From Spirochaetaceae bacterium (GTDB lineage Bacteria; Spirochaetota; Spirochaetia; B11-G9): a stretch of 50,198 nt of DNA. The notes below the pieces were generated by a model, which worked only from the letters and a program-made list of their open reading frames with translations, searched no databases and was not told the origin of the DNA. A program made the position numbers and the translations under genes. Of this stretch, positions 3,365 to 48,481 are shown one piece after another. Each line of letters opens with the position of its first letter. The stretch's first letter is position 1. The stretch covers positions 1 to 50,198 of the forward strand of contig WGCU01000051.1 of assembly GCA_015493635.1 (NCBI GenBank), read 5' to 3'.

Positions 3365-3459
3365 TTCATTGTTCACAAAATTACTTTAAAGGAGGTTAAA
3401 AGGTTTAATAAAATTGTTAGAGAAAAAATAAAATGACAAGAAGGAGAGTGGTAAAGAAA

Positions 3460-4563: not shown

Positions 4564-4573
4564 AAGAGTAAAT

Positions 4574-4617
4574 AAGTACCCAGTAAAAAACAAACGTATT
4601 TACTGGGTACTTTTTTT
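4574..4617 (+). terminator. Rho-independent (probably partial) terminator inside the operon
   Basis: A perfect 14-bp stem (AAGTACCCAGTAAA at 4574-4587 with its complement at 4599-4612) with an 11-base loop is followed by a run of T from 4611. It sits between the binding-protein and ATPase genes, where transporters often use attenuation to keep binding-protein mRNA more abundant. Confidence 0.85.
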
Positions 4618-4672
4618 GTTAAAATTTTGTGATGTAGAATATTTTTCTTTTAATTAGGAAGGGGTTGTTATA

Positions 4673-6169: not shown

Positions 6170-6173
6170 ACTA

Positions 6174-7130: not shown

Positions 7131-7133
7131 TTC

Positions 7134-8078
7134 ATGAGAGATAATTATATATTAAAAAATAGTCTTAAACAGCTATTTAGTCTTTTTGGTTTGATTGCTA
7201 TTATAATAATTTCGAGCATTCTTTCTCCACGATTTCTTAAAATTGAAAATCTAATAACAATTTTAAGACAATCCAGTATTCTTCTAATTCTAAGCCTTGG
7301 TCTAACTGGTGTTGTATTAACGGGCGGTATTGATCTTTCAATCAGTGCAATTGCTGCATTTGTTGGTTGTACAATTGCACAGTTGCTGAAAAGTGGTATG
7401 TCTATTCCTCTGGTCTTTGGTATAGGTTTAATTGTCGGGGGTGTTATTGGAATATTTAACGGTATATTAGTAGGAAAATTAAAAATGCCGCCTTTCGTAG
7501 CAACTTATGGTATGATGATGGTTGTCAACGGTTTATCATTAATAATGATGCAGGGAGCTGTTATATATGGACTTCCAAAAAAGTTTACCTGGCTTGGAGT
7601 TGGTTATATGGGCTCTATTCCTATACCTGTAGTTCTAGCATTTCTGGTTTCATTATTTTTTATTATTTTATTCAGAAAAACTGTATTTGGGGCGGAGCTG
7701 TATATTTTAGGGGCAAATAAGACTGCAGCACGCTACTCTTCAATACCTGTTGATAAAAATCTTATTTTAATATATGGAATATCTGGATTAACTGCAGGAT
7801 TTGCCGGAATAATACTAACAGCACGTCTTGATGCTGCTGAAGTTGCCATGACTGATGTTTTTGGTCTGCAGACAGTTGCTGCAGTAGTTATTGGGGGGAC
7901 ATCCCTCCTTGGAGGAGAAGGAGGTGCCTTCGGAACAGTTATTGGTGCTTTGATTCTAACGATTGTTGTTAATATAATGAACCTTACTGGTATTTCTTCT
8001 TTTTTCCAACCTATAGTTATGGGAGTTGTTATTATTTTTACTGTATTTATTGATGTTGTTTCAAAAAGACGACAATAA
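7134..8078 (+). CDS. Sugar ABC transporter permease 2 (RbsC family)
   Basis: The 314-residue protein is a paralogue of the preceding permease, with the matching motifs SLGLTGVVLTGGIDLSISAI, KMPPFVATYGMMMVVNGLS and AAVVIGGTSLLGGEGG. Several membrane helices are evident by eye. The pairing of two non-identical permeases with one double ATPase is common for pentose, rhamnose-like and autoinducer-2-type importers. Translation is probably coupled, since only 3 bases separate it from permease 1. Confidence 0.9.
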   Translation: MRDNYILKNSLKQLFSLFGLIAIIIISSILSPRFLKIENLITILRQSSILLILSLGLTGVVLTGGIDLSISAIAAFVGCTIAQLLKSGMSIPLVFGIGLIVGGVIGIFNGILVGKLKMPPFVATYGMMMVVNGLSLIMMQGAVIYGLPKKFTWLGVGYMGSIPIPVVLAFLVSLFFIILFRKTVFGAELYILGANKTAARYSSIPVDKNLILIYGISGLTAGFAGIILTARLDAAEVAMTDVFGLQTVAAVVIGGTSLLGGEGGAFGTVIGALILTIVVNIMNLTGISSFFQPIVMGVVIIFTVFIDVVSKRRQ

Positions 8079-8120
8079 GTACTATTTTCAAAGACGCTAT
8101 ATACTTTTGGTGATAAATAC

Positions 8121-9341
8121 ATGAAACGAGTTATTGGAATTATTGCAAGTCTGGATACAAAGGGTGAAGAAGTTATATTTATAAAAAACTTGTTAGACAA
8201 GTTTGGGTATTCACCTTTTATTATTGATATAGGTGCCGGTAGAAACAGTTTCCTAAAACCAGATATAGATGCGCTTTACATTGCCAAAAAAGCGAGGTAC
8301 AACTGGCAATCACCATTTGATGTTTCAAAGAGTAAGATGATTGATATTCTTAAATATGGAATTGAAAAGGCGATACCAGAACTATATAAAAAAGGGTTGT
8401 TTGATGGGCTTCTTTCTATTGGTGGATTACAAAATACCACTATCGCTGTAAGTGCTATGAAAGTATTACCCATTGGATTTCCTAAAGTTATTGTGTCTAC
8501 TGTAGCCAGTGGGAAAAGGTCCTTTGACTCAATTGTTGGAATTACAGATACCGTAGTTATCCCATCACTCACGGATTTTTCGGGAAGTAATGTTATAACA
8601 GATAAAGTTTTAAGTAATGCAGTAGCAGCGATAACAGGAATGACTGAAAGAGCTGGGAAAACTTTGCAAAAGGTTCCTGATATGTTAATCGGTATGACAA
8701 CTATGGGTGTAGTAGAGCGAGGATCTTCTAATTTGATCAGAACACTAAAAAGGAAAGGTTTCCAGGTTGTAAGTTTTCATTCTACTGGGGTTGGTGGTCA
8801 ATTACTGGATAAGTTGGTAACTCAAGGAATTATTAAGGCAACTATTGAGTTTTCTTTGCATGAAATTGTAGGGGAATTATTAGGAGGATATTCCAGCGGA
8901 GTTTTAAACAGGTTGCTTGCTTCTTCAAGAAAAGGTATTCCTCAGATAGTAATTCCCGGTGCCTGTGACTTTATTGACTATGGAGTAGAAGAAGTATCAG
9001 AAAAAATGCTGGAGAGGAAACACATTTATCATAATTCTGATTTAGTACATTTAAAACTCTCAAGGAAAGAAATTGTCGAAGTAGGAAAAATAATTGTTGA
9101 ACGATTGAAAGAATCAAAAGGTCCTGTAACTGTTATTCTTCCTTTAAAGGGAATGCGATCTGGTTCTACCAAGGGTGGAGCTTTATATGACCCTGAAGTA
9201 GATAATGCATTGTTTGATATACTTAAATCAGGTTTAGAAAATAAAGCAAAAGTAATTGATGTTAATGCTAATATAAATGATGATGAATTTAGTGTAATAG
9301 TGCAGAATGAGGTAAAACAATTACTTCATTCAAATGCATGA
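8121..9341 (+). CDS. UPF0261 / Tm-1-like ATP-binding domain protein
   Basis: The N-terminus RVIGIIASLDTKGEE and the later blocks GLLSIGGLQNT, VSTVASGKRSFDSIVGITD and FHSTGVGGQLLDKLV are characteristic of the UPF0261 family, related to the ATP-binding domain of the tomato Tm-1 resistance protein. At 406 residues it has the full family length (N-terminal Rossmann-like part, C-terminal part ending near ILPLKGMRSGSTKGG). The biochemical role of the bacterial family is not established as far as I know. It lies between the importer genes and the regulator, and it is the only plausible ATP-using enzyme among the catabolic genes, since no standard sugar kinase is present. Confidence 0.8.
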   Translation: MKRVIGIIASLDTKGEEVIFIKNLLDKFGYSPFIIDIGAGRNSFLKPDIDALYIAKKARYNWQSPFDVSKSKMIDILKYGIEKAIPELYKKGLFDGLLSIGGLQNTTIAVSAMKVLPIGFPKVIVSTVASGKRSFDSIVGITDTVVIPSLTDFSGSNVITDKVLSNAVAAITGMTERAGKTLQKVPDMLIGMTTMGVVERGSSNLIRTLKRKGFQVVSFHSTGVGGQLLDKLVTQGIIKATIEFSLHEIVGELLGGYSSGVLNRLLASSRKGIPQIVIPGACDFIDYGVEEVSEKMLERKHIYHNSDLVHLKLSRKEIVEVGKIIVERLKESKGPVTVILPLKGMRSGSTKGGALYDPEVDNALFDILKSGLENKAKVIDVNANINDDEFSVIVQNEVKQLLHSNA

Positions 9342-9362
9342 TTGATCCTACAGGAATTTTAG

Positions 9363-10322
9363 ATGATAAGGTTTGACCGAGAGTCGCTAACAATACGATG
9401 TGCATATTTATTCTATCAGGAAAAAATGAATATAAAACAGATAGGAGAAAGACTTAATATTTCGAGGTTTAAAGTATCCCGCTATCTTAAGAAAGCTGAA
9501 GAAAAAGGGTATGTTCAGATTAAATTTAATTTTCCGGGTATCCTGTATGAGACATTGGCTTTGAGTCTTGAGAGCAAGTTTGGAATTAAACGGGTGGAAA
9601 TTGTTCCTGTTACACCGGAAATGGATTCTGAAACAGTAAGGAAAGCTGTAGGTCATAAAGGTTCTGAGATTCTAAAAGAAATGGAAGATGTAAAATCCAT
9701 CGGGATAACTTGGGGAAGAACAATAGCACATATGGTTGAGGATCTTCCGTATGCTTCAATTCATTTAAAGAAGATTAATGAACTAACTGGAGGATACGGT
9801 ATGATAAATACTAACATCCAATCAAGCTCTTTGGCTCCATTACTTGCAAAAAAGACTGGGGCTTCCTGTTTCCAAATGCACGCGCCAATTATTACAAGTG
9901 ATGATATGATTGCTAAAAGTATATTATCAGATGAAAGCCTTTACAGAACCATTGATATGGCAAAAAAAAGCGATGCTGCAATATTTGGTGTTGCTAATCT
10001 AACAAAGAGTTCAATGCTTCAAGTTTCAGGTATGTTAAGTGAAGAGAATATGGAATATTTAAAAAATATTGGTGTAATCGGTTCAATTATTGGCCGGTTT
10101 ATGGATACAGCTGGAAAGGAAATTGATACAAAATATAAGACAAGATCCATAGCTATAGAATGGGATGATTTTATGAAGATTCCTGAACGAATTGCTCTTG
10201 TTGGTGGATGGCATAAAATTGAAAGTACAAAAGCTCTTCTTAAAGGTGGTATTCCGACAACTCTTGTATTAGATAGTATAACAGCTACTGCCATTATGGG
10301 GGATCAATTAAAAAATAACTAA
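9363..10322 (+). CDS. SorC/DeoR-type transcriptional regulator with sugar-binding domain
   Basis: Residues about 8-55 form a helix-turn-helix (IRCAYLFYQEKMNIKQIGERL, then ISRFKVSRYLKKAEEKGYVQI). The rest matches the SorC effector-binding domain, with the family blocks SIGITWGRT, ELTGGYG and IALVGGWHKIESTKALLKGG. Such regulators sense phosphorylated sugars and control the adjoining catabolic operon. The gene is inside the operon (21 bases after UPF0261, 40 before the aldolase gene), so it probably controls its own synthesis. The palindrome at 2454-2467 is its candidate site. No cognate ligand can be assigned. Confidence 0.88.
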   Translation: MIRFDRESLTIRCAYLFYQEKMNIKQIGERLNISRFKVSRYLKKAEEKGYVQIKFNFPGILYETLALSLESKFGIKRVEIVPVTPEMDSETVRKAVGHKGSEILKEMEDVKSIGITWGRTIAHMVEDLPYASIHLKKINELTGGYGMINTNIQSSSLAPLLAKKTGASCFQMHAPIITSDDMIAKSILSDESLYRTIDMAKKSDAAIFGVANLTKSSMLQVSGMLSEENMEYLKNIGVIGSIIGRFMDTAGKEIDTKYKTRSIAIEWDDFMKIPERIALVGGWHKIESTKALLKGGIPTTLVLDSITATAIMGDQLKNN

Positions 10323-10362
10323 TTTTGTATAGAAAGATACAGTAAAATAGGAGGTATATGTA

Positions 10363-10956
10363 ATGAGTGAATATGGCTATTTAAAGGATGAGATGAAAAA
10401 GGCTGCTAAACGAGCTTATGATATAAGTTTACAATCGGGGGATGGGGGTAATTTGAGTGTACGAATTGATGGAAAGGAATTGATTCTTATTAAAGCGTCC
10501 GGTGCTTCATTTGGTCATTTGGAAGATGATGATATTGTTCTGGTTGATTTTAATGGAACTTTGGTTAGCGGAGATAAGAAACCTTCAAGAGAGATTTTGA
10601 CACATATCGCAATTTACACACAAAGGAAAGATGTTACAGCAATTTTTCACAGTCATTCTCCCTGGAGTGTTTCTATTGCTCAATCTTCAGAAATTTTACC
10701 CACAATTTCACTTCCCCTGGAAATGAAAGTTGGCAGGGTTCCTGTTTTTAATATTGGTGCAAGTCATGCAGATGAAGAAGTAGCTGCTACTGTAAAAGAA
10801 CTATTAAAAGATAATCCTTTGATAAAGGCTTTTATTCAGAAGAGACATGGAATTTTTAGTTTATCGTCAGATATTGTAAAGGCGGAGCATACTGCCGAAT
10901 TGATAGAGGAAGCTGCACAAATAGCTTTGCTCTCAAAAATATCTTCACCGAACTAG
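10363..10956 (+). CDS. Class II (zinc) aldolase, fuculose-1-phosphate aldolase/ribulose-phosphate epimerase family
   Basis: The 197-residue protein shows the family pattern: GDGGNLS at residues 26-32, SGASFG at 46-51, PSRE with Glu77, the zinc pair His96 and His98 in HSHSPWS, and the third zinc histidine His162 in KRHG. Members retro-aldol cleave ketose-1-phosphates to DHAP plus an aldehyde, or epimerise ribulose-5-phosphate. Length is near the low end of the family. The clean ribosome site AGGAGG precedes the ATG. It stands directly before the RuBisCO-like gene, as in several sugar-phosphate pathways that end in aldol cleavage. The actual substrate is unknown. Confidence 0.85.
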   Translation: MSEYGYLKDEMKKAAKRAYDISLQSGDGGNLSVRIDGKELILIKASGASFGHLEDDDIVLVDFNGTLVSGDKKPSREILTHIAIYTQRKDVTAIFHSHSPWSVSIAQSSEILPTISLPLEMKVGRVPVFNIGASHADEEVAATVKELLKDNPLIKAFIQKRHGIFSLSSDIVKAEHTAELIEEAAQIALLSKISSPN

Positions 10957-10988
10957 GATTACAATTCACTATATTGGAGGGAATGAAA

Positions 10989-12293
10989 ATGAGTTATGAT
11001 AAAATTTATTATCAAGATTGGGAGAAAATGGATCAGGAGAAATACCTGATACTGGATTATTATTTTGAGTCTACAATTGATCCACATGAGGCTGCAGCTC
11101 ATTTATGTCAGGAGCAGTCAACTGCACAATGGAAGAGGGTAGGTGTTGATGAAGATTTAAGACCTGAATTTGCATCAAAGATTATAGATCTTCAGGTAGA
11201 GCGGGAACTAGAAACCCCTTCTCTACCTTTTCAAATTGATAAATGGGAAAAATTGTGGGGTACTCGGTTAAAAATAGCTTACCCTATTGCTAATTTTGGT
11301 CCCCGAATACCAAATATGCTCACCGCGGTAGGTGGTGAAGGTGCATATTACAGCCCTGGAATTTATACAATAAAGCTCCATGATATTATTTTCCCGGATA
11401 GTTATTTGGATCAATTTGAAGGACCAAAATTTGGAGTGGAAGGATTAAGGAAATGGACAAATGTATTTGATCGACCTCTATTCCTTGGAGTAATTAAACC
11501 AAACATTGGCCTTGCTCCTGAACCCTTTGGTGATCTGGCCTATCAAAGTTGGTTGGGTGGATTGGATATTGCAAAGGATGATGAGCTTCTTTGTGATACT
11601 GAGTGGTCACCTTTTGCAGAAAGGACTAAGGTCTTAGGAAAACTTAGAGCTCAAGCTGAGCAGAAAACCGGTAAAAGATGTGTGTATTTAGCAAATATTA
11701 CCGATGAGGTTGATCGTATGATTGAACTTCATGATATTGGTGTAAAGAATGGTGCTGATATGCTGATGATAAATGCGATGTGTACTGGCCTTTCTGGAGT
11801 AAGAATGGTTCGGAAACATACGGAGGTTCCCCTGGTTGCTCATTTTGATTTTATAGCTCCTTTAGTAAAAGCTCCTTACTATGGAATTCATTCCAGGGTG
11901 ATTACAAAATTGCAACGGCTTTCTGGATGCGATATGATAATTTTCCCTGGTCTTGGTAGTCGCATGAAAACACCTGAAATAGAGGTTTTTGAAAATGTTA
12001 ATACTTGTTTAGATCCTATGGGTCCAATTAAACCATCCCTGCCAGTTCCAGCAGGAAGCCAGTGGGCAGGTTCATTGGGCCCATTAAGTAAAAGAGTAGG
12101 ACATACTGACTTTGCTATAGTTCCAGGCAGGGCAGTTTTTAGTCATCCTGGAGGACCTGCTTCAGGGGCAAAAAGCCTGCATCAAGGTTGGGAGGCTGTT
12201 GAAAAGGGTGTATCCCTGGAAGAATATGCAAAAGAACATTTTGAATTAGCACAGGCAATTCAACAATTTACAGGAAAGGAGAAAGTAAAATGA
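10989..12293 (+). CDS. RuBisCO-like protein (form IV), not a CO2-fixing RuBisCO
   Basis: The 434-residue protein is a clear RuBisCO large-subunit homologue. It keeps Lys170 (KPNIGL, equivalent to K175), the carbamylated-lysine motif AKDDE (Lys196, Asp198, Glu199) and His285 (H294 position). Other RuBP-contacting residues are changed: TGTW is TAQW, the N123 position is Glu117, KPK is KPN, HIH (H327) is replaced by MII, and loop 6 lacks the normal GKLEG. It therefore should bind Mg and enolise a different sugar-phosphate-like substrate. Known form IV enzymes are enolases, isomerases, decarboxylases or transcarboxylases. Start ATG 10989 is chosen over ATG 10983 or TTG 10974 because GGAGG (10976-10980) then has 8-base spacing. 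It overlaps the next gene by 4 bases. Confidence 0.93.
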   Translation: MSYDKIYYQDWEKMDQEKYLILDYYFESTIDPHEAAAHLCQEQSTAQWKRVGVDEDLRPEFASKIIDLQVERELETPSLPFQIDKWEKLWGTRLKIAYPIANFGPRIPNMLTAVGGEGAYYSPGIYTIKLHDIIFPDSYLDQFEGPKFGVEGLRKWTNVFDRPLFLGVIKPNIGLAPEPFGDLAYQSWLGGLDIAKDDELLCDTEWSPFAERTKVLGKLRAQAEQKTGKRCVYLANITDEVDRMIELHDIGVKNGADMLMINAMCTGLSGVRMVRKHTEVPLVAHFDFIAPLVKAPYYGIHSRVITKLQRLSGCDMIIFPGLGSRMKTPEIEVFENVNTCLDPMGPIKPSLPVPAGSQWAGSLGPLSKRVGHTDFAIVPGRAVFSHPGGPASGAKSLHQGWEAVEKGVSLEEYAKEHFELAQAIQQFTGKEKVK

Positions 12294-30303: not shown

Positions 30304-33300
30304 TTACGCTGTCCAGACATCCTCAATATGAGGATATTCTTTAATTAAACTCAGTACGTTACCGGATGGCTCCAGTTTTATCTGCCCTGATGCTCTGATA
30401 ATAGTATCATTTCCTGCGGCAGGAGAATGAAGGTGAAGATACACCGCACAGTTTCCTGAGAAATCCATCAGGTATTCTCTAAAGGACACAAGATCTTCCT
30501 CCTGGCAGATATCCCTGTTTATTTTTATATGCACTTCAGATGTTTTCAGCTTTTTGAGCTTTTCCAGGGGAATTATTTCATCTACAAGGAACTTCGGATC
30601 TCCCCGGGAGAGGTCAACCTTTCCGGAAAATCCCAAAATTGCATCCTTTTGGATCAACTCCCCTTTCTCTTCCCAGATCTTGGGGAAAAATGTCAGCTCT
30701 ATCGTTCCCTTGAAATCTTCAAGCAGCACGAATGCCATGGGACGGCCTTTTTTTGTTGTGATAACCCGTGGCTCATGTACTGTTCCCAGAATGGTGTACT
30801 TTCTATCGGTTTGGATGGAATCAGGATGTGAAAGATCCAGTGATACTGCTTTTTCCCAGATTTTCCGGTATTTATCCAGAGGGTGTCCCGAAAAATAGTA
30901 TCCGAGAAGTTCTTTCTCATTTCTGAGATTGTCCATCTGAGGCCATTCTTCAACCGTTTCTATCTTTACAGGGGGTATCATGGTTTCATCATTTTCATCA
31001 AAAAGTGATGTTTGACCGAATTTTTCTCCGTCTTTCTTTTTCGTGGTATATTCAAGCATCGTATCCAGATTGTGCATGAGTGTTGCACGGCCTGTCTTGA
31101 AAGAATCAAAAACTCCGCATTTTAGTAATGATTCTATAACTTTCCTGTTTACTACTCTCAGGTCAACCTTATAGAGGAAGTCAAGAAAAGATTCAAAAGC
31201 ACCATTTTCTTCTCTGGAACGGATTATCTCGTCTACTGCGGCTTCTCCGATGTTTTTTATCCCGACAAGGCCGTAAACAATTTTTCCCTGTTCAACGGTA
31301 AAATTCTTGTCTGACAGATTGATATCCGGGGGAAGGATAGCAAGCCCCATACTCTTTGTTTCATTGATATACTGGGTCATCTTGTCGGGGTTGTTAATTT
31401 CATTTGTCAGGTTGGCAGCCATGAACTCGGCGGGATAATTTGCTTTCAGATATGCTGTTTTGTATGCGATTACTGAGTATGCAGCGGCATGGGATTTATT
31501 AAAGCCGTATCCTGCGAAGGGTTTAAGCATTTCGTAAATATCCGAAGCCAGTTTTTCACTGTATCCCTTCTCTTTTGCCCCGGCAAGGAATTCTACCTTC
31601 ATTTTCTCCATTTCTTTGACTTTTTTCTTACCCATGGCCCTGCGTAAAATATCTGCTTTGCCAAGGCTGAATCCGCCGATAATCTGAGCCACTTTCATGA
31701 CCTGTTCCTGATAGACGATAACACCGTAGGTTGGTTCCAGAACTTCTTTAAGACTGGGATCAGGGTAACGGATAGGGGTTCTTCCCCTTTTGCTGTCAAT
31801 AAACTGCGGTATATTCTGCATGGGGCCGGGGCGGTACAATGCATTTAACGCAATAAGGTCTTCTATGGAGTCAGGCTTTGCCTGCTTCAGGATTCCCTGC
31901 ATCCCTGAGCTCTCAAACTGGAAGACACAGACACTTTTCCCTTCGCCGAGGAGTTTGAATGTTTTTCTATCATATTCAGGAATAGCTTCACTGCTGAAAT
32001 CTGCTTCCCGTTTTCTGATAAGGTCTTCAGTATGTTTTATAAGGGTAAGGGTTTTAAGCCCGAGAAAGTCCATCTTTACAAGACCGCACTCTTCAAGCTG
32101 ATCCATGGTGTACTGGGTTGAAATGGATCCGGTCTTGGCATCACGGTATAGAGGAACATAATCGGTTAGTTTACTTTTCCCGATAACCACCCCCGCGGCA
32201 TGGGTTGAGGCATGCCGGGAGAGCCCTTCCAGACGTTTACCCGTATCGATCAGTTCCCGGTAAATTTCTCCTCTGCTTTCGTAGACTTTAAGTTTCGGTT
32301 CCTTCTCCAGAGCCTCTTCAATAGTTATTTTATTTTCTGAGGGAATAAGTTTTGATATCTGATCCGCCTCTGAATAGGGAATATCAAGAACCCGGGCTAC
32401 ATCACGGATAACAGCTTTTGCTTTTAATGTTCCAAAGGTAATAATCTGGCCGACTCTGTCTTTCCCGTACTTCCGGGTAACGTAATCTATTACCTCCTGG
32501 CGCCTTTCAAAACAGAAATCTATATCAAAATCAGGCATGGATATCCGTTCAGGATTAAGAAACCGTTCAAAGAGGAGTTTGTACTTCAGCGGATCAATAT
32601 CCGTAATTTTTAAGGAGTAGGCCACAATGGAGCCTGCTCCCGAGCCTCTGCCGGGGCCGACGGGAATATCATTTTCTCTGGCAAAATGAATAAAATCCCA
32701 GACAATGAGGAAGTAGCCGGTAAACTTCATACTAATGATAATATCCAGCTCATATTCTACCCGGGCTTTGATCTCTTCCGTAATAACCGGATACCGTTCT
32801 TTGAGACCTTCTTCTGTCAGCGACCGTAAATAATCATCCGGGGTCTTGAATTGAGACGGAATTTCGTAATCAGGAAGCAGCGGACCCGGAAGCTCTATTT
32901 CAAGATGACATTTTTCCGCAAGTTTTACCGTATTTTCCAGTGCTTCAGGGACATCCTTAAAGACTTCGTACATCTCTTCGCGGCTTTTCATATAGAATTC
33001 ACTGGAACTGAACTTCATTCTCTTTGTTTCATGTTTTTTACGGTTTGTTCCAATACAGATAAGAATATCCTGGGCATTTGCATCTTCTTTTGAAAGATAA
33101 TGAATATCGTTCGTTGCTATAAGAGGAATCCCTGTTTCCCGGGACAGGGAACGTATCTGCTCGTTGGCAATTTTCTGCTCAGGAATACCGTGGTCCTGAA
33201 GTTCCAGGTAGAAGTTACCGTCACCGAATATTTTGTTGTAGTAAAGTACCGCTTCTCTGGCCTCATCAATCTTGCCTTCCAGGATTTTTCTTGGAACAAT

Positions 33301-33735
33301 TCCGACAAGACAGGCCGTAGAGCAGATAAGTCCCTCGTGGTACTTTTCTATAAGTTCATTATCAATCCGAGGTTTATAGTAAAATCCCTCAGTATATGCC
33401 AGGGAAGATAGCATGAGGAGATTCCGGTACCCGGTAATATTTTTTGCAAGAAGGATAAGGTGATTATATCTGTTTCCCTTATCCAATCCGGATTTAATTT
33501 TTCTACTGGTTGAGGATACATAAAACTCACAGCCTATGACAGGATTGATATCATGGGCTTTACATTCTTTATAAAAGCGCAGGGCGCCGAACATATTCCC
33601 GTGATCAGTGATAGCGAGATGTTTCATTCCCAGAGAAACAGCTTTTTCCACCATTTTTTTTATGGGAACCGCTCCATCCAGAAGAGAGTAATCGGTATGG
33701 TTGTGCAGGTGAACAAAATCAGGTACGTGTGACAT
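30304..33735 (-). CDS. dnaE: DNA polymerase III alpha subunit (DnaE)
   Basis: The 1143-residue protein has the N-terminal PHP domain (HLHNHTDYSLLDG, AITDHGNMFG), the C-family polymerase palm with GPGRGSGAGSIVAYSL and the catalytic PDFDIDF, the fingers (YRPGPMQNIP), the KSHAAAYSVIAYKTAYLK block and, towards the end, an OB fold (YTILGTVHEPRVITT). No exonuclease insertion is present, so it is DnaE and not PolC. The gene follows the XDH-like trio by 25 bases and may share its transcript. Confidence 0.97.
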   Translation of the reverse strand: MSHVPDFVHLHNHTDYSLLDGAVPIKKMVEKAVSLGMKHLAITDHGNMFGALRFYKECKAHDINPVIGCEFYVSSTSRKIKSGLDKGNRYNHLILLAKNITGYRNLLMLSSLAYTEGFYYKPRIDNELIEKYHEGLICSTACLVGIVPRKILEGKIDEAREAVLYYNKIFGDGNFYLELQDHGIPEQKIANEQIRSLSRETGIPLIATNDIHYLSKEDANAQDILICIGTNRKKHETKRMKFSSSEFYMKSREEMYEVFKDVPEALENTVKLAEKCHLEIELPGPLLPDYEIPSQFKTPDDYLRSLTEEGLKERYPVITEEIKARVEYELDIIISMKFTGYFLIVWDFIHFARENDIPVGPGRGSGAGSIVAYSLKITDIDPLKYKLLFERFLNPERISMPDFDIDFCFERRQEVIDYVTRKYGKDRVGQIITFGTLKAKAVIRDVARVLDIPYSEADQISKLIPSENKITIEEALEKEPKLKVYESRGEIYRELIDTGKRLEGLSRHASTHAAGVVIGKSKLTDYVPLYRDAKTGSISTQYTMDQLEECGLVKMDFLGLKTLTLIKHTEDLIRKREADFSSEAIPEYDRKTFKLLGEGKSVCVFQFESSGMQGILKQAKPDSIEDLIALNALYRPGPMQNIPQFIDSKRGRTPIRYPDPSLKEVLEPTYGVIVYQEQVMKVAQIIGGFSLGKADILRRAMGKKKVKEMEKMKVEFLAGAKEKGYSEKLASDIYEMLKPFAGYGFNKSHAAAYSVIAYKTAYLKANYPAEFMAANLTNEINNPDKMTQYINETKSMGLAILPPDINLSDKNFTVEQGKIVYGLVGIKNIGEAAVDEIIRSREENGAFESFLDFLYKVDLRVVNRKVIESLLKCGVFDSFKTGRATLMHNLDTMLEYTTKKKDGEKFGQTSLFDENDETMIPPVKIETVEEWPQMDNLRNEKELLGYYFSGHPLDKYRKIWEKAVSLDLSHPDSIQTDRKYTILGTVHEPRVITTKKGRPMAFVLLEDFKGTIELTFFPKIWEEKGELIQKDAILGFSGKVDLSRGDPKFLVDEIIPLEKLKKLKTSEVHIKINRDICQEEDLVSFREYLMDFSGNCAVYLHLHSPAAGNDTIIRASGQIKLEPSGNVLSLIKEYPHIEDVWTA

Positions 33736-33760: not shown

Positions 33761-34630
33761 TCATTCTGTAAAGAGATTATAGTCTCTCAATTCATGAAGA
33801 AACCATAGTATGAACCGTATTGTTCTCTCTTTCTGAAAGGAAGTAAGTACTTCTGTCTGCTCCATGGCTTTTTTGAAATATTCAACCGCGTTATCAATTT
33901 CTTTCGGCCGGAGTTTCAGTTTCTTTTCGGTGAGATACGATTCAAAATCAATACTGCGTACAATGGTTTTCCCGATGTTTCCAACGGCAAACCGTACCTG
34001 CGAGATAAGCCCTTTGTGTGTTTCCATTAAGAGACTGAAGGAAATTGCGTTGAACGGGTCATAAAAAGGATCTCCCACCGCTGTGAAATACTGTAAATTC
34101 CATACATTGAGGGGGATACGTATACGGGTAACCACCTCGTTATCCTGAATACTGTCCTTGCCTTTTCTGGTGAAAAGCCTGTTCAGCCCCACCCATCTGC
34201 TTTTTCCGCTTTTCCGAATTTCAAGAATTGCATCCATCAGGATGAGAACACTGTACGTGTTAAGTCTTCTGCTTCTGCAGCAAAGGTTACCGCCGAGGGT
34301 TGCTCTGTTCCGGATATGCGGAGGCGCAATACTCCGTAAAGCTTCCGAGAGAGCAAAAGGGAGAACATGCTGCCCGACGTTAAGTATTTTTTTTATCGGG
34401 ACACAGGCGCCTATCTCCAGGTACCGTTCTGTACGCCGTATCTTTTTTAGTTCGCGTATTCCTGAAAGCTGGATAATATCTTTTGAAAATGACGGATGGA
34501 TGTTCTGCTGTCTCATCAGAGCCGTTCCTCCGGCCCATAGAAGGGTATCAGGGTGCTGCTGTTTTATAGAAAGGAGTTCACTTACCGATTTTGGGGCAAA
34601 AATGTTTCGTCCGGTTCTATTTTCTGCCAA
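33761..34630 (-). CDS. FAD-binding subunit of a xanthine-dehydrogenase-family enzyme
   Basis: The 289-residue protein belongs to the CoxM/XdhB family. The FAD pyrophosphate-binding AGGTALMRQQ (from AGGTDL) and IRNRATLGGNLCCRSR motifs are present. It is downstream of, and overlaps by 14 bases, the 2Fe-2S subunit gene. Together with that and the large subunit it makes a complete XDH-type set, though the large subunit is atypical. Substrate is unknown. Confidence 0.85.
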   Translation of the reverse strand: MAENRTGRNIFAPKSVSELLSIKQQHPDTLLWAGGTALMRQQNIHPSFSKDIIQLSGIRELKKIRRTERYLEIGACVPIKKILNVGQHVLPFALSEALRSIAPPHIRNRATLGGNLCCRSRRLNTYSVLILMDAILEIRKSGKSRWVGLNRLFTRKGKDSIQDNEVVTRIRIPLNVWNLQYFTAVGDPFYDPFNAISFSLLMETHKGLISQVRFAVGNIGKTIVRSIDFESYLTEKKLKLRPKEIDNAVEYFKKAMEQTEVLTSFQKERTIRFILWFLHELRDYNLFTE

Positions 34631-35099
34631 AACGTTTCCTTCTCCTGTACAGTGCTGTTTTTTTTACTACCTGTATTATAATTCTTATGTTCGTACAGGG
34701 ACATATACTTCCTCTGAACGCGTCCAGAATCTGTCCCTCATCCGGTTCGGCAAACCGCTCAAGAATGGAGTATATCGTGAGTATTGTCCCCCCCCTGCAT
34801 AAGTCACAGAGAGTGGTTCCTGTTTCCTCGAAGGCCTGCATTATATCATGGTAATCATCCGTTTTACTGAAGCCTTCAAGGGTCACAATCTCTGAAGACC
34901 TGGCCTCAAAAGCGGGTATGAGACAGGAGGCGGCAGCATCACCATTAAAGAGTATGGTGCAGCTTCTGCATTCTCCCTTATTGCAGGCAGTATGGACACT
35001 GCCTATTTTCGCGTTATCTTTAAGAATATCAGAAAGTCTTGTCTCAGAGGGAGTTTCTACATCAACGTTTCTACCGTTTAATGAAAAATTTATTTTCAT
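34617..35099 (-). CDS. 2Fe-2S subunit of a xanthine-dehydrogenase-family enzyme
   Basis: The 160-residue protein keeps all eight cluster cysteines: C-x4-C-x2-C-x11-C in CNKGECRSCTILFNGDAAAS and C, and the second cluster pairs CDLC and CPC. The usual surrounding residues are changed (CGYC to CDLC, CRCTGY to CPCTNI). So electron transfer is probably retained while the domain surface has diverged. The ATG overlaps the large-subunit stop by 4 bases. Confidence 0.85.
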   Translation of the reverse strand: MKINFSLNGRNVDVETPSETRLSDILKDNAKIGSVHTACNKGECRSCTILFNGDAAASCLIPAFEARSSEIVTLEGFSKTDDYHDIMQAFEETGTTLCDLCRGGTILTIYSILERFAEPDEGQILDAFRGSICPCTNIRIIIQVVKKTALYRRRKRFGRK

Positions 35100-37135
35100 T
35101 TTCCCTCCATGTGCGTATGAAGAACTTCGGGGGTAAGAGGAAGTGTATCAAAGTAGATTCCTGTAGCCTGGGTAACAGCTGAAATAATAGCGGACGGTAG
35201 CAGTGAACCAGGTATTCCTGATATTCCTCCGGGTGTATTTTTCCTTGTTTCTTCGATCTCTATTGAAATAAGGGGCAAATGCCGTTCCAACGGTACATTG
35301 AAACCGGTATCAAAGGTGGATGGAAGTGTTAGATCATCTTTGATGAGGGTTTCCGTGAGGGTTTCAAGAATTGAGGTTTCGAGAGCATCAACAGCTATTT
35401 TCTTATTATAAATTTTACCACTGTCAATAATAAGCCAGATACCGCGTACAAGAACTCTCAAAAAAACAGGATCAATCTCTATTTCCGCTATTGCCGCTCC
35501 CCATGAAAGAGAATGGAAAGGCAGACCCTTGAACTTTTCAGGGTCCCACCGTCTCGTTCCGGGCATACGGTAGGAACGTTTTACAACAATCGGCAGAGCA
35601 TGATGGAATCGTTGTTTTTTTATTTCAATACAGCATTTTTCCACAAGACTTGTAATAATACTGATCCCGCTTGATAGAAATGCAGGTCCCGAATTCGGCA
35701 GATTTGACGTATCTCCCTGCTGTACAATTACCGATGATGGGTCTGTTCCGAGAATAGCAGCAGCTGTTTCTTTCCATATAGCTGTAGATTGTGAACCGTA
35801 CGCGCTGCTGAGGATGGTAACAGTGTCATCCCTGTCCAATCTGACTTTTATGGAGTATGTTTCATTTTTTTCCCGTTTAATGGTTGGTCCATTACCGGTA
35901 AACCCGAATGAGAGACCAATCCCGCGGATATTTCCTTTTCCAATGGGACCCTGTTTTCTATTTTTTCTGAGTAGTTCGTATGCTGCATATTTTCTGTTAA
36001 AATCTGAATTGTCTAGAACCTTTTGAAGAAGTGTTTTTCCATGAAAATCTTTAAGAATTCCCCCGGTGGGAAGGTATGCTTTTTTACCTGGAAGAAAGGA
36101 AAGACGCCACTGCCCCGGAGTTTTCCCATAAAGCTCTGCTATTCTTGAAAAATGGGTTTCAACGGAAAAAGTACCGGCAGAAAAACTCAACCCTTTAAAA
36201 GCATTCATGGGAGGTTCACTGGTAATAATCCCCCTGCAGGTTATTTTCATATTAGGGATTATGTATGATCCGGCTGCACCAATGAGTATCTGACTTAAAA
36301 GTTCATCAGTAAAGAGAGGATAAGCACCCATATTTACCTCAATAACGGCTTTCTCTGCAAGAACCTTGCCCTTTTCATCCACAGCCGAGAGCCGGGTTAT
36401 CATTACTTCCGGCCTTTGTACCGCATACACTGCATGATCTTCTTCTCCAGGTATAAGACTGACCGGTTTTCCAGCTTTAAGCGAAAGAACGGCGGCTAAA
36501 GAAGCGTACAACGATGGTATAACAAGTTTTTCATCATAGGTGGGATTAAATTTTCCGATTTTTACCCGTACATTCTTCAGGGGGAAATTACAGACTGCCG
36601 CGACGCACCGGCGTAGTTGAAAAGGCCATTGCGTTTCGCCTTGTATCGTTGCAATACCTTTAGATACAGCAGCAATTACACCCTGAAAACTGGAGAATCC
36701 AGCCGGCTGAGAATGGACATGATATTTCCCTTCTACTGTCTGATATGCCCCGCCCAATATCTTGTCAACATTTCCTTTGGTAAAGGATTTTTCAGCAGCA
36801 ATCTGATCCTCAGTGTATTTGTTGAAACCAAGGAGTGAGTAGTCTGTTTCGTATTCAACCCTTGTCTGTCTGCAGAGCGAAAGTACCGTTTGTTTGTCCG
36901 GACCGCAGATAACCGCCAGCGGTTCACCCTTATAGGAGATTATATTTTCACAGAGCAGGGGCCGTGAGTCCTTAAAAGCGGTAAGGGTATTCCGGCCGGG
37001 GATGTCTTTATAGGTTATGCCATAATATCCTTCAGGCAGAAGCGGGAACTGTATGGACTGCAGTTTTCCCCGGGGAATTGTTGAAGCGATGATGTATGCA
37101 TCCAGTACTTTCGTACCGGGATAGTCACGAGCCAC
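35096..37135 (-). CDS. Divergent large (molybdopterin-type) subunit of an XDH-family enzyme
   Basis: The protein aligns along its length with XdhA/CoxL (LDAYIIASTIPRGKLQSIQF at the N-terminus, ETQWPFQLRRCVAAVCNFPL, and the C-terminal SAVTQATGIYFDTLPLTPEVL). However, the cofactor motif GG-x-FGGK is KFNPTYDEK, the E-x-GQG block is SAYGSQ, and GxGEPP with its catalytic glutamate is GISGIPG (residues about 637-643). The start is GTG 37135, which has AGGAG 8 bases upstream. The open frame extends 210 bases further into the aminotransferase gene but that part is not XDH-like. Length 679 is shorter than usual. Molybdenum hydroxylase activity is doubtful. Confidence 0.75.
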   Translation of the reverse strand: MARDYPGTKVLDAYIIASTIPRGKLQSIQFPLLPEGYYGITYKDIPGRNTLTAFKDSRPLLCENIISYKGEPLAVICGPDKQTVLSLCRQTRVEYETDYSLLGFNKYTEDQIAAEKSFTKGNVDKILGGAYQTVEGKYHVHSQPAGFSSFQGVIAAVSKGIATIQGETQWPFQLRRCVAAVCNFPLKNVRVKIGKFNPTYDEKLVIPSLYASLAAVLSLKAGKPVSLIPGEEDHAVYAVQRPEVMITRLSAVDEKGKVLAEKAVIEVNMGAYPLFTDELLSQILIGAAGSYIIPNMKITCRGIITSEPPMNAFKGLSFSAGTFSVETHFSRIAELYGKTPGQWRLSFLPGKKAYLPTGGILKDFHGKTLLQKVLDNSDFNRKYAAYELLRKNRKQGPIGKGNIRGIGLSFGFTGNGPTIKREKNETYSIKVRLDRDDTVTILSSAYGSQSTAIWKETAAAILGTDPSSVIVQQGDTSNLPNSGPAFLSSGISIITSLVEKCCIEIKKQRFHHALPIVVKRSYRMPGTRRWDPEKFKGLPFHSLSWGAAIAEIEIDPVFLRVLVRGIWLIIDSGKIYNKKIAVDALETSILETLTETLIKDDLTLPSTFDTGFNVPLERHLPLISIEIEETRKNTPGGISGIPGSLLPSAIISAVTQATGIYFDTLPLTPEVLHTHMEGK

Positions 37136-38312
37136 GGCCGGTGCTCCTGTAATGCGATTCCCCGATGGCACGGACAGCCGCTGCAACTCTGCTGCACTGC
37201 TCTTCGGTAAGCCCGGGATAAATAGGAAGGCTGAAGACGGTTTGGTATACATGAAGAGCATGGGGAAAGTCTTCCGGTTTAAATCCGTATTTTTTCCTGT
37301 AGTACGGCATAATGTGCAGGGGAATGTAATGAACCGATGTTCCAATACCTTTTTCTTTCATATACCGAAGAAATGTATCTCTCCCAATAGTACATTTTTC
37401 TTCTTTGAGACGGACAATATAGAGGTGCCATGCGTTAAGTTCTGAAGGGGGGGGGAGTATCAGAAAATCAAGACCGCCCAGTTCTTTTTCATAGTAAGCT
37501 GCTATCTGTCTGCGCCGGGATAGAAATGCTGCGCCTTTCTTTAGTTGTTCTCTTCCCATGGCGGCTAGAATATCCGGCATATTATATTTAAAGCCTGCTT
37601 CAACAACACGGTACTGCCAGGACGCTTTTTTCGATGTATAGCGGTCCCATATTTCCCGGTCAATACCATGAAGCCTCATAACAGCTATCCTGCCTGCAAT
37701 CTCATCGTTATCCGTAACAATCATTCCGCCTTCACCAGTGGTAATTGTTTTTGTCGCGTAGAAAGAATAAACCCCTGCGTCACCCAGGGTCCCCAGAAAT
37801 TTTCCTTTAAGGGAGAGAGGAAACGCGTGAGCGGCGTCTTCTATAACCGGAATAGTATATTTCTTTTTCAGTTTGAGAATTTCATCCATTGCCGCAGGTT
37901 TTCCCCCGATATGCACAGGAAGAATACATTTTATCTTTCGGTTTTCGGCGAGAGCGCGGGACAGGGCAGCGGGATCCATGTTGTACGTTGACAGATCGAT
38001 ATCAATAAAAACAGGATCTGCTCCAAGATACCGGATTACCTCTGCTGTCGCGGTAAAGGTGTAGGGTGTTGTAACCACCTTATCTCCGGGACCAATTCCT
38101 GCTGCTTCGAGAGCCAGATGCAGTCCGGCCGTCGCGGAATTTACAGCCAGGGCATAGCGGGCTCCGACATAATCTGCAAATTCCTGTTCAAAAGCTTTTG
38201 CTTCTTTTCCCGTTGTCAGCCATCCGCTTCGAAGAACACGGAGCACAGCCTGTTCTTCCTCTTCACCAAGAGAAGGAAGGGCAAAAGGAATAAAATCAGA
38301 TTTCCGGTTCAT
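37125..38312 (-). CDS. DegT/DnrJ/EryC1-family sugar aminotransferase
   Basis: The 395-residue protein has the PLP-dependent aminotransferase pattern of the PglE/WecE/PseC group: NSATAGLHLALEAAGIGPGD, EDAAHAFPLSLKGK with GTLGDAGVYSFYATKTITTG, where the lysine in ATK holds PLP. It should transfer an amino group to a keto-sugar nucleotide made by the upstream dehydratase. It overlaps the dehydratase gene by 17 bases and the XDH-like gene by 11 bases, so the genes are translated in series. Confidence 0.9.
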   Translation of the reverse strand: MNRKSDFIPFALPSLGEEEEQAVLRVLRSGWLTTGKEAKAFEQEFADYVGARYALAVNSATAGLHLALEAAGIGPGDKVVTTPYTFTATAEVIRYLGADPVFIDIDLSTYNMDPAALSRALAENRKIKCILPVHIGGKPAAMDEILKLKKKYTIPVIEDAAHAFPLSLKGKFLGTLGDAGVYSFYATKTITTGEGGMIVTDNDEIAGRIAVMRLHGIDREIWDRYTSKKASWQYRVVEAGFKYNMPDILAAMGREQLKKGAAFLSRRRQIAAYYEKELGGLDFLILPPPSELNAWHLYIVRLKEEKCTIGRDTFLRYMKEKGIGTSVHYIPLHIMPYYRKKYGFKPEDFPHALHVYQTVFSLPIYPGLTEEQCSRVAAAVRAIGESHYRSTGRGS

Positions 38313-39780
38313 TGTCTATCATGGGAATGGTCTTGATTATTTTTTTTAACGAAGCCCGTAAAAACCGCCGGTTTCTGTAATGGGTATTTGGTTCATCTTT
38401 TGAGAGAAAGCATACCTGATGCAGTTCTTTCAGGAGACTGTCAAGCTGGCCGTTCAGTCTGCTCCTGTTTTTCAGCTGGATAATACCCGGGTATTCGGTT
38501 TTTATAACCGTATCGTCGTCTGTCCAGAGACGTTCTGTCAGCTTTTCTCCGGGACGGAGCCCGATATAGGTAAGTTTGATTTCTTTCTGGGGTACAAATC
38601 CGTAAAACCGGATCATCTGTTCAGCAAGATCCTTTATCAGTACCGGTTCTCCCATTTCAAGGATATATAAATTACCGCCTTTTCCGACCCCTCCTGTTTT
38701 AAGAACAAGAGAGGCTGCCTCAGGGATTGTCATAAAAAACCGTTTGACCTTTTCATGAGTAATGGTAACCGGTCCTCCTTTAAGAATCTGCCGGGTAAAA
38801 AGAGGAACAATACTTCCCCGGGAGGCAAGAACATTACCGAAACGGACAACCATAAAATCAGTTTCTCCTTTATTACTTGAAAGGACAAGTTCTTCCGCAA
38901 TAAGTTTACTGGCTCCATAGATGCTTTTCGGTTCTACAGCCTTATCGGTAGATATAAAAACAAAACGTGAAACATGTGCTTCCTGTGCGGCTTCAATAAT
39001 ATTCTTTGTCCCGAAAACGTTGTTTTTCACTGCCTCCACAGGGTTTGCTTCTCCCATGGGAACATGTTTGTATGCTGCACAATGGAAAATAACATCCGCT
39101 TTCAAGCGGTTTATAATAAACTTGATAAAGTATTTATCCTGAAGTTCTCCTACAATCGGAACAATGGTAGCTGCCCCTCCTACACCTTCTTCCTGAAGAA
39201 TGGTAAGTTCCTTATTAATTTCATACACATTGTTTTCACTGTGATCGAAAAGGTACAGTCTCTCAGCGCCTCCGTACAGAAGCTGCCGCGCCAGTTCGCT
39301 TCCTATACTTCCTCCTGCCCCGGTTATGAGGACCCTCTTACCGCGGAGGTAGGTAAGACTTTCTTTAAGATTCAAACGAATAGGTTTTCTGGCCAGGAGA
39401 TCCTGCACTTTTATTTCTCTCGTCTGAATAAGATGTGCTTCCCCTTCTATTATCTGGGAAACACCGGGAAGTATCCGTATTCTTTCTATATCCGACTGTT
39501 TAAGGGCTGAATATATACGTCTCAGCTGTTCTTTTGTTGCCCGTGGGATTGCGATGATAGCTTCATCAGCTTTAGTCCGGGTTTGGATTTCCTTTATAGT
39601 GGACAGAGGACCGTATACAGGGATGCCTTCAATAGTGGTACCGATTTTTGCAGCGTCATCATCCACAAAAGCGGCAACCTCGCCAAGAATACCCTTGGAG
39701 GAAATTTCAGCTGCTATTCCTCTTCCTGCAAATCCTCCGCCGATAATGAGGATTTTATCTTTCTGTATCTTTTTCATCAT
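38296..39780 (-). CDS. FlaA1/CapD-type nucleoside-diphosphate-sugar dehydratase
   Basis: The 494-residue protein has an N-terminal CoA-binding-like Rossmann domain (LIIGGGFAGRGIAAEI) and a C-terminal SDR domain with GAGGSIGSELARQLLYGG, HCAAYKHVPMGEANP and STDKAVEPKSIYGASK. The four N-terminal membrane helices of WbpM/PglF are absent. It has Tyr in the Y-x3-K site, as in PseB/FlaA1, rather than the Met of WbpM. With the aminotransferase it would make a 4-amino-4,6-dideoxy sugar nucleotide for a surface glycan or flagellin. Confidence 0.88.
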   Translation of the reverse strand: MMKKIQKDKILIIGGGFAGRGIAAEISSKGILGEVAAFVDDDAAKIGTTIEGIPVYGPLSTIKEIQTRTKADEAIIAIPRATKEQLRRIYSALKQSDIERIRILPGVSQIIEGEAHLIQTREIKVQDLLARKPIRLNLKESLTYLRGKRVLITGAGGSIGSELARQLLYGGAERLYLFDHSENNVYEINKELTILQEEGVGGAATIVPIVGELQDKYFIKFIINRLKADVIFHCAAYKHVPMGEANPVEAVKNNVFGTKNIIEAAQEAHVSRFVFISTDKAVEPKSIYGASKLIAEELVLSSNKGETDFMVVRFGNVLASRGSIVPLFTRQILKGGPVTITHEKVKRFFMTIPEAASLVLKTGGVGKGGNLYILEMGEPVLIKDLAEQMIRFYGFVPQKEIKLTYIGLRPGEKLTERLWTDDDTVIKTEYPGIIQLKNRSRLNGQLDSLLKELHQVCFLSKDEPNTHYRNRRFLRASLKKIIKTIPMIDNEPEI

Positions 39781-40312
39781 CCTCTACTTTTTCCAGTATT
39801 TCAAAACCAAAATCCACTTTAAAAGATTCTTTATAAAGCGATAGTTTGATTTTAGCACGTTTTTTCCTTCTGTCTACCTTTAGTATTTTACCTTCAAGCC
39901 CTTTCATCGGTCCATTGACGACTCGGATACGGTTATTTTTATCAAACCAGACAGTCGATTTCTCCACAATCTCACCGTAGGACAGGAAATGCAGAAGCAG
40001 TTTTTTATCTTCACCGACTATCGGCTGAATATTTTGGTTACTCTCTAAAAACCGGATAAACCCGGAGGTTTTTTTTAAAATCCAGTAAATATCAGGGTCA
40101 AGGGTATCCTTATCAAAAAAAAGATATCCGGGAAAGATGGGAGCAATTGTTTCTTGCTGTTTTCCCCTCTTTCGGAGGGTCAGTTTCCTTTGAGGCCAGA
40201 TTATTTTTCCCCTTTTTTCCACAGGTACATGATGTACGTTAAAATTATATTCTGCAAGGCGAATATATTTTTTTTCCTGACCGGTTAGTACCTGAAAAAC
40301 ATAGAAGTTCAT
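39755..40312 (-). CDS. NusG-paralogue transcription antiterminator (LoaP/RfaH type)
   Basis: The 185-residue protein has an NGN domain (YVFQVLTGQEKKYIRLAEYN, PIFPGYLFF, GFIRFLESN) and a C-terminal KOW motif (NRIRVVNGPMKGLEGKILKV). It is a NusG paralogue, not the housekeeping nusG, since it is not next to rplK or secE. It heads a minus-strand glycan operon, the typical position of LoaP and RfaH, which let RNA polymerase read through long operons. It overlaps the next gene by 26 bases. Confidence 0.87.
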   Translation of the reverse strand: MNFYVFQVLTGQEKKYIRLAEYNFNVHHVPVEKRGKIIWPQRKLTLRKRGKQQETIAPIFPGYLFFDKDTLDPDIYWILKKTSGFIRFLESNQNIQPIVGEDKKLLLHFLSYGEIVEKSTVWFDKNNRIRVVNGPMKGLEGKILKVDRRKKRAKIKLSLYKESFKVDFGFEILEKVEDDEKDTER

Positions 40313-48067: not shown

Positions 48068-48481
48068 TTATGTTAGTTTCAGTATTCCCACGGCAAATCC
48101 TGCTACCGTAACGATAAATCCGAATGACCAGATCATGAAGTGAAACATCTTTGTCTGGATAGCTTCTATCTGCTTTCCAATCTGCTCAAATTGTCTGCCT
48201 ATCTGTATAAATTGTTTGCTGTCCTGTTCGAAACGTTTGTCAACTTGCTCAAAGTGTTTATCAACCTGTTCGAAACGCTTATCAACCTGTTCGAAACGTT
48301 TTTCCATCTGCTCAAAACCTTGTTTCATCAACTCCCGTTGACTTTTAAGTTCTTCCTCCACCCTGACCATTCTTTCCAGCAGTTCAAAACTGTACTTCTG
48401 ATCAGGAAGCCATTCCTGTAAATGATTCTGAACGTATTCTCCGATTACCTGTAATTCTTCCTGCTTTAATGCCATTGCCAT
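48068..48481 (-). CDS. Heptad-repeat coiled-coil protein with C-terminal membrane helix (Bdr-like)
   Basis: The 137-residue protein has a polar N-terminus, a central coiled coil of near-perfect 7-residue repeats (FEQVDKR, FEQVDKH, FEQVDKR, FEQDSKQ), and a C-terminal membrane helix (MIWSFGFIVTVAGFAVGILK). The plan of a coiled-coil stalk made of heptads and one C-terminal helix resembles Borrelia Bdr proteins, although I cannot show common descent. The DNA repeat unit is 21 bases, so the number of repeats can change without frameshift. The ribosome site AAGGAG precedes ATG 48481. Confidence 0.75.
   Translation of the reverse strand: MAMALKQEELQVIGEYVQNHLQEWLPDQKYSFELLERMVRVEEELKSQRELMKQGFEQMEKRFEQVDKRFEQVDKHFEQVDKRFEQDSKQFIQIGRQFEQIGKQIEAIQTKMFHFMIWSFGFIVTVAGFAVGILKLT
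48225..48308 (-). repeat. Four tandem 21-base repeats inside the coiled-coil gene
   Basis: Units of 21 bases (plus-strand form TGTTCGAAACGCTTATCAACC) occur at 48225, 48246, 48267 and 48288, with the second and fourth diverged. Each encodes one heptad. The third unit and part of the first are almost identical, which suggests recent slippage or unequal exchange. Confidence 0.8.

Follow-up and report, generated by a model that had tools for sequence, protein, structure and literature searches.

What becomes of a molybdenum enzyme whose large subunit has lost the motifs that hold its cofactor, and for what function is the rest of the complex kept? This question is raised by three adjoining genes in a 50,198-nucleotide stretch of DNA from a Spirochaetaceae bacterium (assembly GCA_015493635.1, contig WGCU01000051.1, positions 1 to 50,198; hereafter the window), which encode the large, iron-sulfur and flavin adenine dinucleotide (FAD) subunits of a complex of the xanthine dehydrogenase (XDH) type. 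An initial annotation had proposed that the large subunit lacks its active-site motifs and that the complex may bind another cofactor, carry out other redox chemistry or lack molybdenum. The reading preferred here, with a probability of about 0.7, is that the complex is now free of molybdenum cofactor (Moco) and has been repurposed as a flavoprotein complex; that it binds no Moco is, as a prediction from sequence, very probable. The three genes and the positions of the Moco-site landmarks in the large subunit are as follows:

35096..37135, minus strand: large subunit, 679 amino acids (aa), GTG start; XDH molybdopterin-subunit fold without the Moco site
34617..35099, minus strand: iron-sulfur subunit for two [2Fe-2S] clusters, 160 aa; eight ligand cysteines at 39, 44, 47, 59, 98, 101, 133 and 135
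33761..34630, minus strand: FAD subunit, 289 aa, TTG start; AGGT and TLGGN loops present, XDH FAD-domain fold
36524..36550, minus strand: position of the GGxFGGKE Moco loop, lost; large-subunit residues 196-204 read FNPTYDEKL
36188..36202, minus strand: A(F/Y)RGF position; residues 312-316 read AFKGL, with Lys314 as the Arg912-equivalent and Leu316 as the Phe914-equivalent
35786..35812, minus strand: position of the EMGQG phosphate/pterin loop, lost; residues 442-450
35210..35233, minus strand: KGxGEL position; residues 635-642 read PGGISGIP, with Gly640 at the place of the catalytic Glu1261

Residue equivalents were read in a single alignment that sets the degenerate family against 16 intact paralogs, of which 15 come from Spirochaetia and one from Selenomonas, and the landmarks follow bovine XDH numbering (Phe798, Gly799, Glu802, Arg912, Gly1039, Gln1040). 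In the window protein, the FGGKE loop is replaced by Y200-D-E-K-L204, which puts a leucine in place of Glu802, and the GQG block reads Y-G447-S448-Q, with a serine in place of Gln1040; Arg880 is replaced by Gln282, and Gln767 is retained as Gln169. In the intact paralogs, the loops are kept within the same alignment, and chance or misalignment was rejected on this ground. The absence of the GGxFGGK and GQG blocks claimed by the initial annotation is confirmed by this comparison, as is that of the catalytic glutamate in the window, and neither the glutamate nor the cofactor loops are found intact there. The roles of Glu802, Arg880 and the catalytic Glu1261 in XDH are described in PMC3624778. 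When the family profile is aligned with human XDH in a PDB search, the FGGKE, Arg880, AFRGF and GQG columns coincide in the same manner, Gln767 lying in the strand after GFQEH and Arg880 within the VLQR motif. The losses are neither chance nor the mark of a damaged copy, since a whole clade has them in common.

The partner subunits were said to keep their cofactor residues. This holds for all eight cysteines of the window iron-sulfur subunit and for the FAD domain (FAD_binding_5, 131.9 bits), but not for the glutamine of the QCGFC motif, through which the iron-sulfur subunit contacts the pterin and which is Leu97 in the window.

Despite the missing loops, the XDH fold stands, since the predicted model is complete while the loops are absent from the alignment. 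The large-subunit frame runs unbroken from the GTG at 37135, with AGGAG eight bases upstream, down to 35096. Its AlphaFold2 model, with a predicted local distance difference test (pLDDT) of 87.1 and a predicted template modelling score (pTM) of 0.89, is that of a complete XDH large subunit; it matches R. capsulatus XDH (1jro_B) with a template modelling (TM) score of 0.87 in Foldseek and the best AOR/XDH chains with VIA-align Z values of 41-43. Among the top PDB sequence matches is 1t3q_B, and no other fold occurs among the structural matches listed by Foldseek and a second structural search. The FAD subunit is modelled with a pLDDT of 86.7, aligns with XDH-family FAD subunits at TM scores of 0.73-0.80 in Foldseek and has a profile match to 4zoh_B (E 2e-31). 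Domain models reflect the divergence of the large subunit to different degrees: MoCoBD_1 (E 2.7e-34) and MoCoBD_2 (E 5.1e-21) of Pfam are over their cut-offs, Ald_Xan_dh_C (28.9 bits) is slightly under its own of 31.3, and the score stays far under every cut-off of the NCBIfam XDH models (106 bits versus 784 for PucD).

The window protein belongs to a family spread over most of a bacterial class. Of 118 related genomes, 105 have a match with E ≤ 0.001, and once intact paralogs are separated the degenerate family is present in 103 of these 118 Spirochaetia genomes, according to a list compiled by hand that takes in fragments from metagenome-assembled genomes (e.g. G034, G060, G099, G109). It was not found in any of the seven genomes of family f20, which look like Borrelia. 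One peptide marker scanned over 84,980 named species led to 75 confirmed loci, of which 74 lack FGGK; two records bear no title but ‘bacterium’ (L162, L176), and the sole named non-spirochete, Selenomonas L174, has FGGK, which led to the rejection of recent spread by transfer. A plasmid search returned distant matches only, below 60% identity. Vertical inheritance of the locus is shown by its linkage to dnaE, found downstream at 33 of the 83 loci with enough sequence.

For residue counts, fragments shorter than 600 aa were removed and the remainder was reduced at 90% identity; 160 degenerate and 16 intact sequences stood before this reduction, and 129 degenerate members including the window protein after it, of which 125 enter the iron-sulfur table and 119 the FAD table. 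Of four further sets, three include the window, together with 19 loci from L002-L030 (A1), with 39 of the 75 named loci (A2) and with 27 of these 75 (A4), and one covers 11 of the 16 intact paralogs (A3). None of the six Moco-loop landmarks is kept in 82 of the 129 members, one in 40, two in five, three in one and four in one, and all six are found in 15 of the 16 intact paralogs. The Glu802-equivalent is a glutamate in two of 129 members versus 15 of 16 intact paralogs, and the pterin-contact glutamine of the iron-sulfur subunit survives in 2/125 members versus 14/14 intact ones. With pterin and phosphate contacts lost together in this way, in two subunits, it is very improbable that Moco is still bound through altered loops by an active, divergent molybdenum hydroxylase, even if the MoCoBD domains remain over their Pfam cut-offs.

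The distribution of cofactor genes points in the same direction. Among the 118 genomes, MoaC was found in 50, MoeA in 44, the C-terminal domain of MoaA in 48 and MoaE in 18. Neither MoaC nor MoeA occurs in 56 of the 103 genomes that carry the family, nor in 46 of the 75 with a completeness of 90% or more and a contamination of no more than 5%; in 40 family genomes, Moco genes and an intact-type XDH of at least 900 bits are both missing. The complex thus persists without Moco genes, and the loss of landmarks is independent of Moco synthesis, the mean number kept being 0.49 in 41 molybdenum-positive (Mo+) versus 0.58 in 45 molybdenum-negative (Mo−) genomes (Mann-Whitney P 0.89). Given that the pterin-binding loops are all lost and that the complex is retained in genomes free of Moco genes, the suggestion that it lacks molybdenum is well supported.

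The order of events can be traced in the phylogeny. The degenerate sequences are monophyletic, with a support of 100/99 in a careful tree of 49 rows (36 degenerate) and of 99 in a quick tree of 80 rows (64 degenerate); the FGGK-positive group of the former takes in three outside sequences (L227-L229) without a literal FGGK. The lineage phylogeny called for by the initial annotation therefore yields one clade with a common loss. In the first branch, L073/L100, four and three landmarks, respectively, are left of the six. In the next, five of the nine sampled members have xdhC directly upstream, a gene that also adjoins one intact Selenomonas locus and encodes a Moco-insertion factor; these five members are also without FGGK. 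The window falls in the large group made up of all other members, most of whose loci have sugar genes instead of xdhC, and no xdhC was found between positions 30304 and 40312 of the window. Since early-branching members keep a neighbouring xdhC, the clade probably descends from a normal molybdoenzyme; on a plain reading of the sequences, this was a working XDH beside dnaE, in which Moco binding was lost once, at the base of the clade.

Several observations weigh against a complex without Moco, and two of them, the substrate-side residues and the xdhC neighbours, speak for residual cofactor binding. Substrate-side residues are often kept in the family (Gln767-equivalent in 86, Arg880-equivalent in 78 and Glu1261-equivalent in 53 of 129 members), so that the loss of the catalytic glutamate, real in the window, is not family-wide. 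Of these three residues, Mo+ genomes keep a mean of 1.93 versus 1.31 in Mo− genomes (P 0.0004, uncorrected for kinship). The check for Moco biosynthesis genes proposed by the initial annotation went the other way in the window's own genome, which has MoaC, MoeA and the MoaA C-terminal domain as well as an intact XDH paralog at C32. Moreover, the xdhC beside five early-branching members suggests that some cofactor may still be loaded in them, and four of these five genomes have MoaC. Finally, no MoaA, MoaC or MoeA match was found in 17 of the 42 genomes with an intact XDH of at least 900 bits (G005, G007, G010, G011, G024, G035, G036, G040, G047, G052, G055, G063, G067, G073, G077, G096 and G106); either Moco comes from outside, or the pathway is divergent or was missed, some of these genomes being incomplete. 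Owing to this control, the absence of Moco genes supports the absence of the cofactor but does not prove it.

If Moco is gone, is the complex still of use? The large-subunit ratio of nonsynonymous to synonymous substitution (dN/dS) is 0.055-0.225 over nine degenerate pairs with unsaturated dS, a tenth pair being saturated, and the iron-sulfur and FAD subunits give similar values; the complex is thus under purifying selection. A functionless relic decaying into pseudogenes could be imagined from the fast evolution of the large subunit, which is 23% identical to the copy of genome G081, and from the progressive loss of cofactor ligands. Pseudogene status was rejected, dN/dS being far below 1 in close pairs and the frames intact in every match listed. 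Selection also holds where iron-sulfur ligands are reduced, as in the pair L094/L098, which has six cysteines only (iron-sulfur subunit dN 0.086, dS 0.75); the order large subunit, iron-sulfur subunit, FAD subunit is found at 90/90 loci with enough sequence; and the complex is retained in the 1.14-Mb genome G081. The relic explanation is therefore scarcely credible.

The iron-sulfur ligands give a less uniform picture. All eight cysteines are present in 100 of 125 members, and members in which some are missing include closed genomes. In G081 (1,139,633 bp), which is probably Treponema pallidum, partly judging from its gene order (PglF, aminotransferase, large, iron-sulfur and FAD subunits), the plant-type cluster has none of its four cysteines left and the other four are kept; in its iron-sulfur subunit (L040:9240-9734), His, Asn, Ser and Tyr stand at the plant-type positions. 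One of the eight cysteines is left in G033 (one contig), the Moco-proximal set is lost in G011 and in the pair L148/L155, and a deletion runs across the plant-type set in G008. On an 80-row tree with 75 degenerate rows, complete loss requires at least three changes per cluster, and incomplete sets of any kind at least four changes for the plant-type and at least eight for the Moco-proximal cluster. In contrast to these losses, FAD_binding_5 scores 87.5-128.2 bits (cut-off 27) in the five FAD subunits tested from genomes with reduced 2Fe-2S sets. The FAD domain is thus the only one of the cofactor domains that all members examined for it retain, and the 2Fe-2S clusters are optional across the family although present, by sequence, in the window complex. 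Because 2Fe-2S sets have been lost separately in several lineages and the FAD domain has not, the job common to the family probably depends on the assembled protein with its FAD subunit rather than on a complete electron chain.

These losses bear on two further explanations. In one, the complex is a pure protein scaffold or regulator in which FAD is merely structural or sensing and no member transfers electrons. The retention of the subunit in separate lineages that have lost 2Fe-2S ligands agrees with this, but the presence of eight cysteines in 100/125 members does not, as selection would hardly keep these ligands unless the clusters had some use, at least a structural one; for the family as a whole the explanation is rather doubtful. 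In the other, which is unlikely, the former Moco cavity of the large subunit is occupied by some other cofactor, be it another metal, heme, flavin or an altered pterin, and the electrons for a new redox chemistry come from FAD and 2Fe-2S. The same eight cysteines, and the FAD loops and both 2Fe-2S sets intact in the window, would fit such a function, some cofactor might be loaded by the XdhC encoded next to early members, and residues specific to the family are well conserved among the 129 members (Trp170 in 114, Trp454 in 101, Glu278 in 106, Cys502 in 105, Arg509 in 112, Leu514 in 116 and Pro515 in 125). However, no new invariant metal-ligand set (Cys/His cluster) was found among the conserved large-subunit columns, and the complex is kept in lineages without one or both 2Fe-2S sets. 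Of the options first raised by the initial annotation, another cofactor is thus possible but finds no new metal-binding motif among the conserved columns, and other redox chemistry is conceivable for the window member but cannot be the conserved role of the whole family, given the 2Fe-2S ligands lost in some lineages.

The repurposed flavoprotein complex that is preferred here would have arisen in steps. As the sequences show, an ancestral spirochete XDH lost its pterin-binding loops a single time, after which the full fold, the iron-sulfur and FAD partners and the genome position were kept under purifying selection; 2Fe-2S ligand sets went later and separately, the FAD domain staying. In the window member, the flavin can probably still exchange electrons with the emptied pocket of the large subunit, since FAD and both 2Fe-2S sites look intact. 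The Moco side of this pocket is gone and its substrate side partly kept in relatives, and the emptied subunit may serve as a scaffold or as a new binding site.

A lead to the function may be found in the neighbouring genes:

37125..38312, minus strand: DegT/PseC-type sugar aminotransferase, conserved upstream neighbour (profile matches)
38296..39780, minus strand: PglF/PseB-type UDP-GlcNAc 4,6-dehydratase-like protein, conserved upstream neighbour (profile matches)
39755..40312, minus strand: LoaP-type NusG paralog (processive antiterminator; NCBIfam antiterminator LoaP), heading the gene run
30304..33735, minus strand: dnaE, downstream neighbour of the FAD gene and part of the kept locus linkage

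The NCBIfam LoaP model reaches 147.1 bits on the leading gene, over its cut-off of 125, and the GTG start of the large subunit overlaps the end of the aminotransferase gene. An aminotransferase lies directly upstream of the large subunit at 92 of 119 loci with enough sequence, and PglF upstream at 30 of 42. The complex may tentatively be seen as serving this LoaP-led amino-sugar operon, for instance with a redox or regulatory part in a pathway for surface or flagellar glycans, though the odds are somewhat against it and the amino-sugar and LoaP neighbours give no more than a clue. The link to glycans is weak because the aminotransferase is absent at 27/119 loci and because at L076, L084, L096 and L104, loci that seem Sphaerochaeta-like, a LoaP-type gene immediately precedes the degenerate large subunit, with neither PglF nor aminotransferase.

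Elsewhere in the window, a RuBisCO-like protein (PF00016, PF02788) is encoded at 10974-12290 on the plus strand, next to a sugar ABC transporter, a UPF0261 protein and a sugar-binding regulator-type protein. It lies inside a stretch of about 3433-12293 with a G+C content of 34-37% versus 41-47% over most other window DNA, a stretch that appears to be an acquired island for carbohydrate catabolism. Positions 48223-48329 hold a short tandem array whose period is 21 bases.

XDH-type proteins automatically receive a molybdenum-dependent annotation, yet most of one bacterial class carries members that, by their sequence, should not; genome annotation, apparently that of T. pallidum included, counts these among the molybdoenzymes. 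The loss in steps, first of Moco and then, separately, of the 2Fe-2S sets, with the FAD domain kept, constitutes a natural experiment on why such a complex is retained, and survival of the locus in a much reduced genome suggests that its role is not trivial. It is conceivable, at a little less than even odds, that the spirochete class, including the syphilis spirochete, has stripped a complete three-subunit molybdo-flavo-iron-sulfur enzyme stepwise to a flavoprotein scaffold that dispenses with molybdenum and, in several lineages, with one iron-sulfur cluster or both, and whose function is new, conserved and possibly non-redox.

No Moco-free XDH-like complex in spirochetes was described in the literature searched, most subscription journals lying outside its scope and some sources being accessible in part. 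The T. pallidum genes TPASS_0079 to TPASS_0081 are apparently the same locus; in table passages of PMC5951579 and PMC4403809, TPASS_0079 and TPASS_0081 bear an automated ‘xanthine dehydrogenase’ annotation and the missing Moco site is unremarked. The gene run resembles LoaP antiterminator operons in being headed by a LoaP gene over the model cut-off; LoaP control of the XDH-like genes would be a conjecture. Quinoline 2-oxidoreductase and CO dehydrogenase, both molybdoenzymes, have their fold in common with the large subunit. A precedent for this fold standing without Moco is the CO dehydrogenase structure 1ffu, which is among the structural matches listed and lacks the Mo-pyranopterin moiety according to its PDB title; it presumably represents an experimental state of a normal enzyme rather than an evolved loss. 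The closest known system is the three-subunit bacterial XDH (XdhABC/PucCDE), with which the window complex shares fold, subunits, gene order, the eight 2Fe-2S cysteines, the FAD domain and common descent, but from which it differs in having no Moco loops, no Glu802- or Glu1261-equivalents, no pterin-contact glutamine and no adjoining xdhC. The complex is thus homologous to the molybdenum hydroxylases without their defining feature, and is not classed as one of them.

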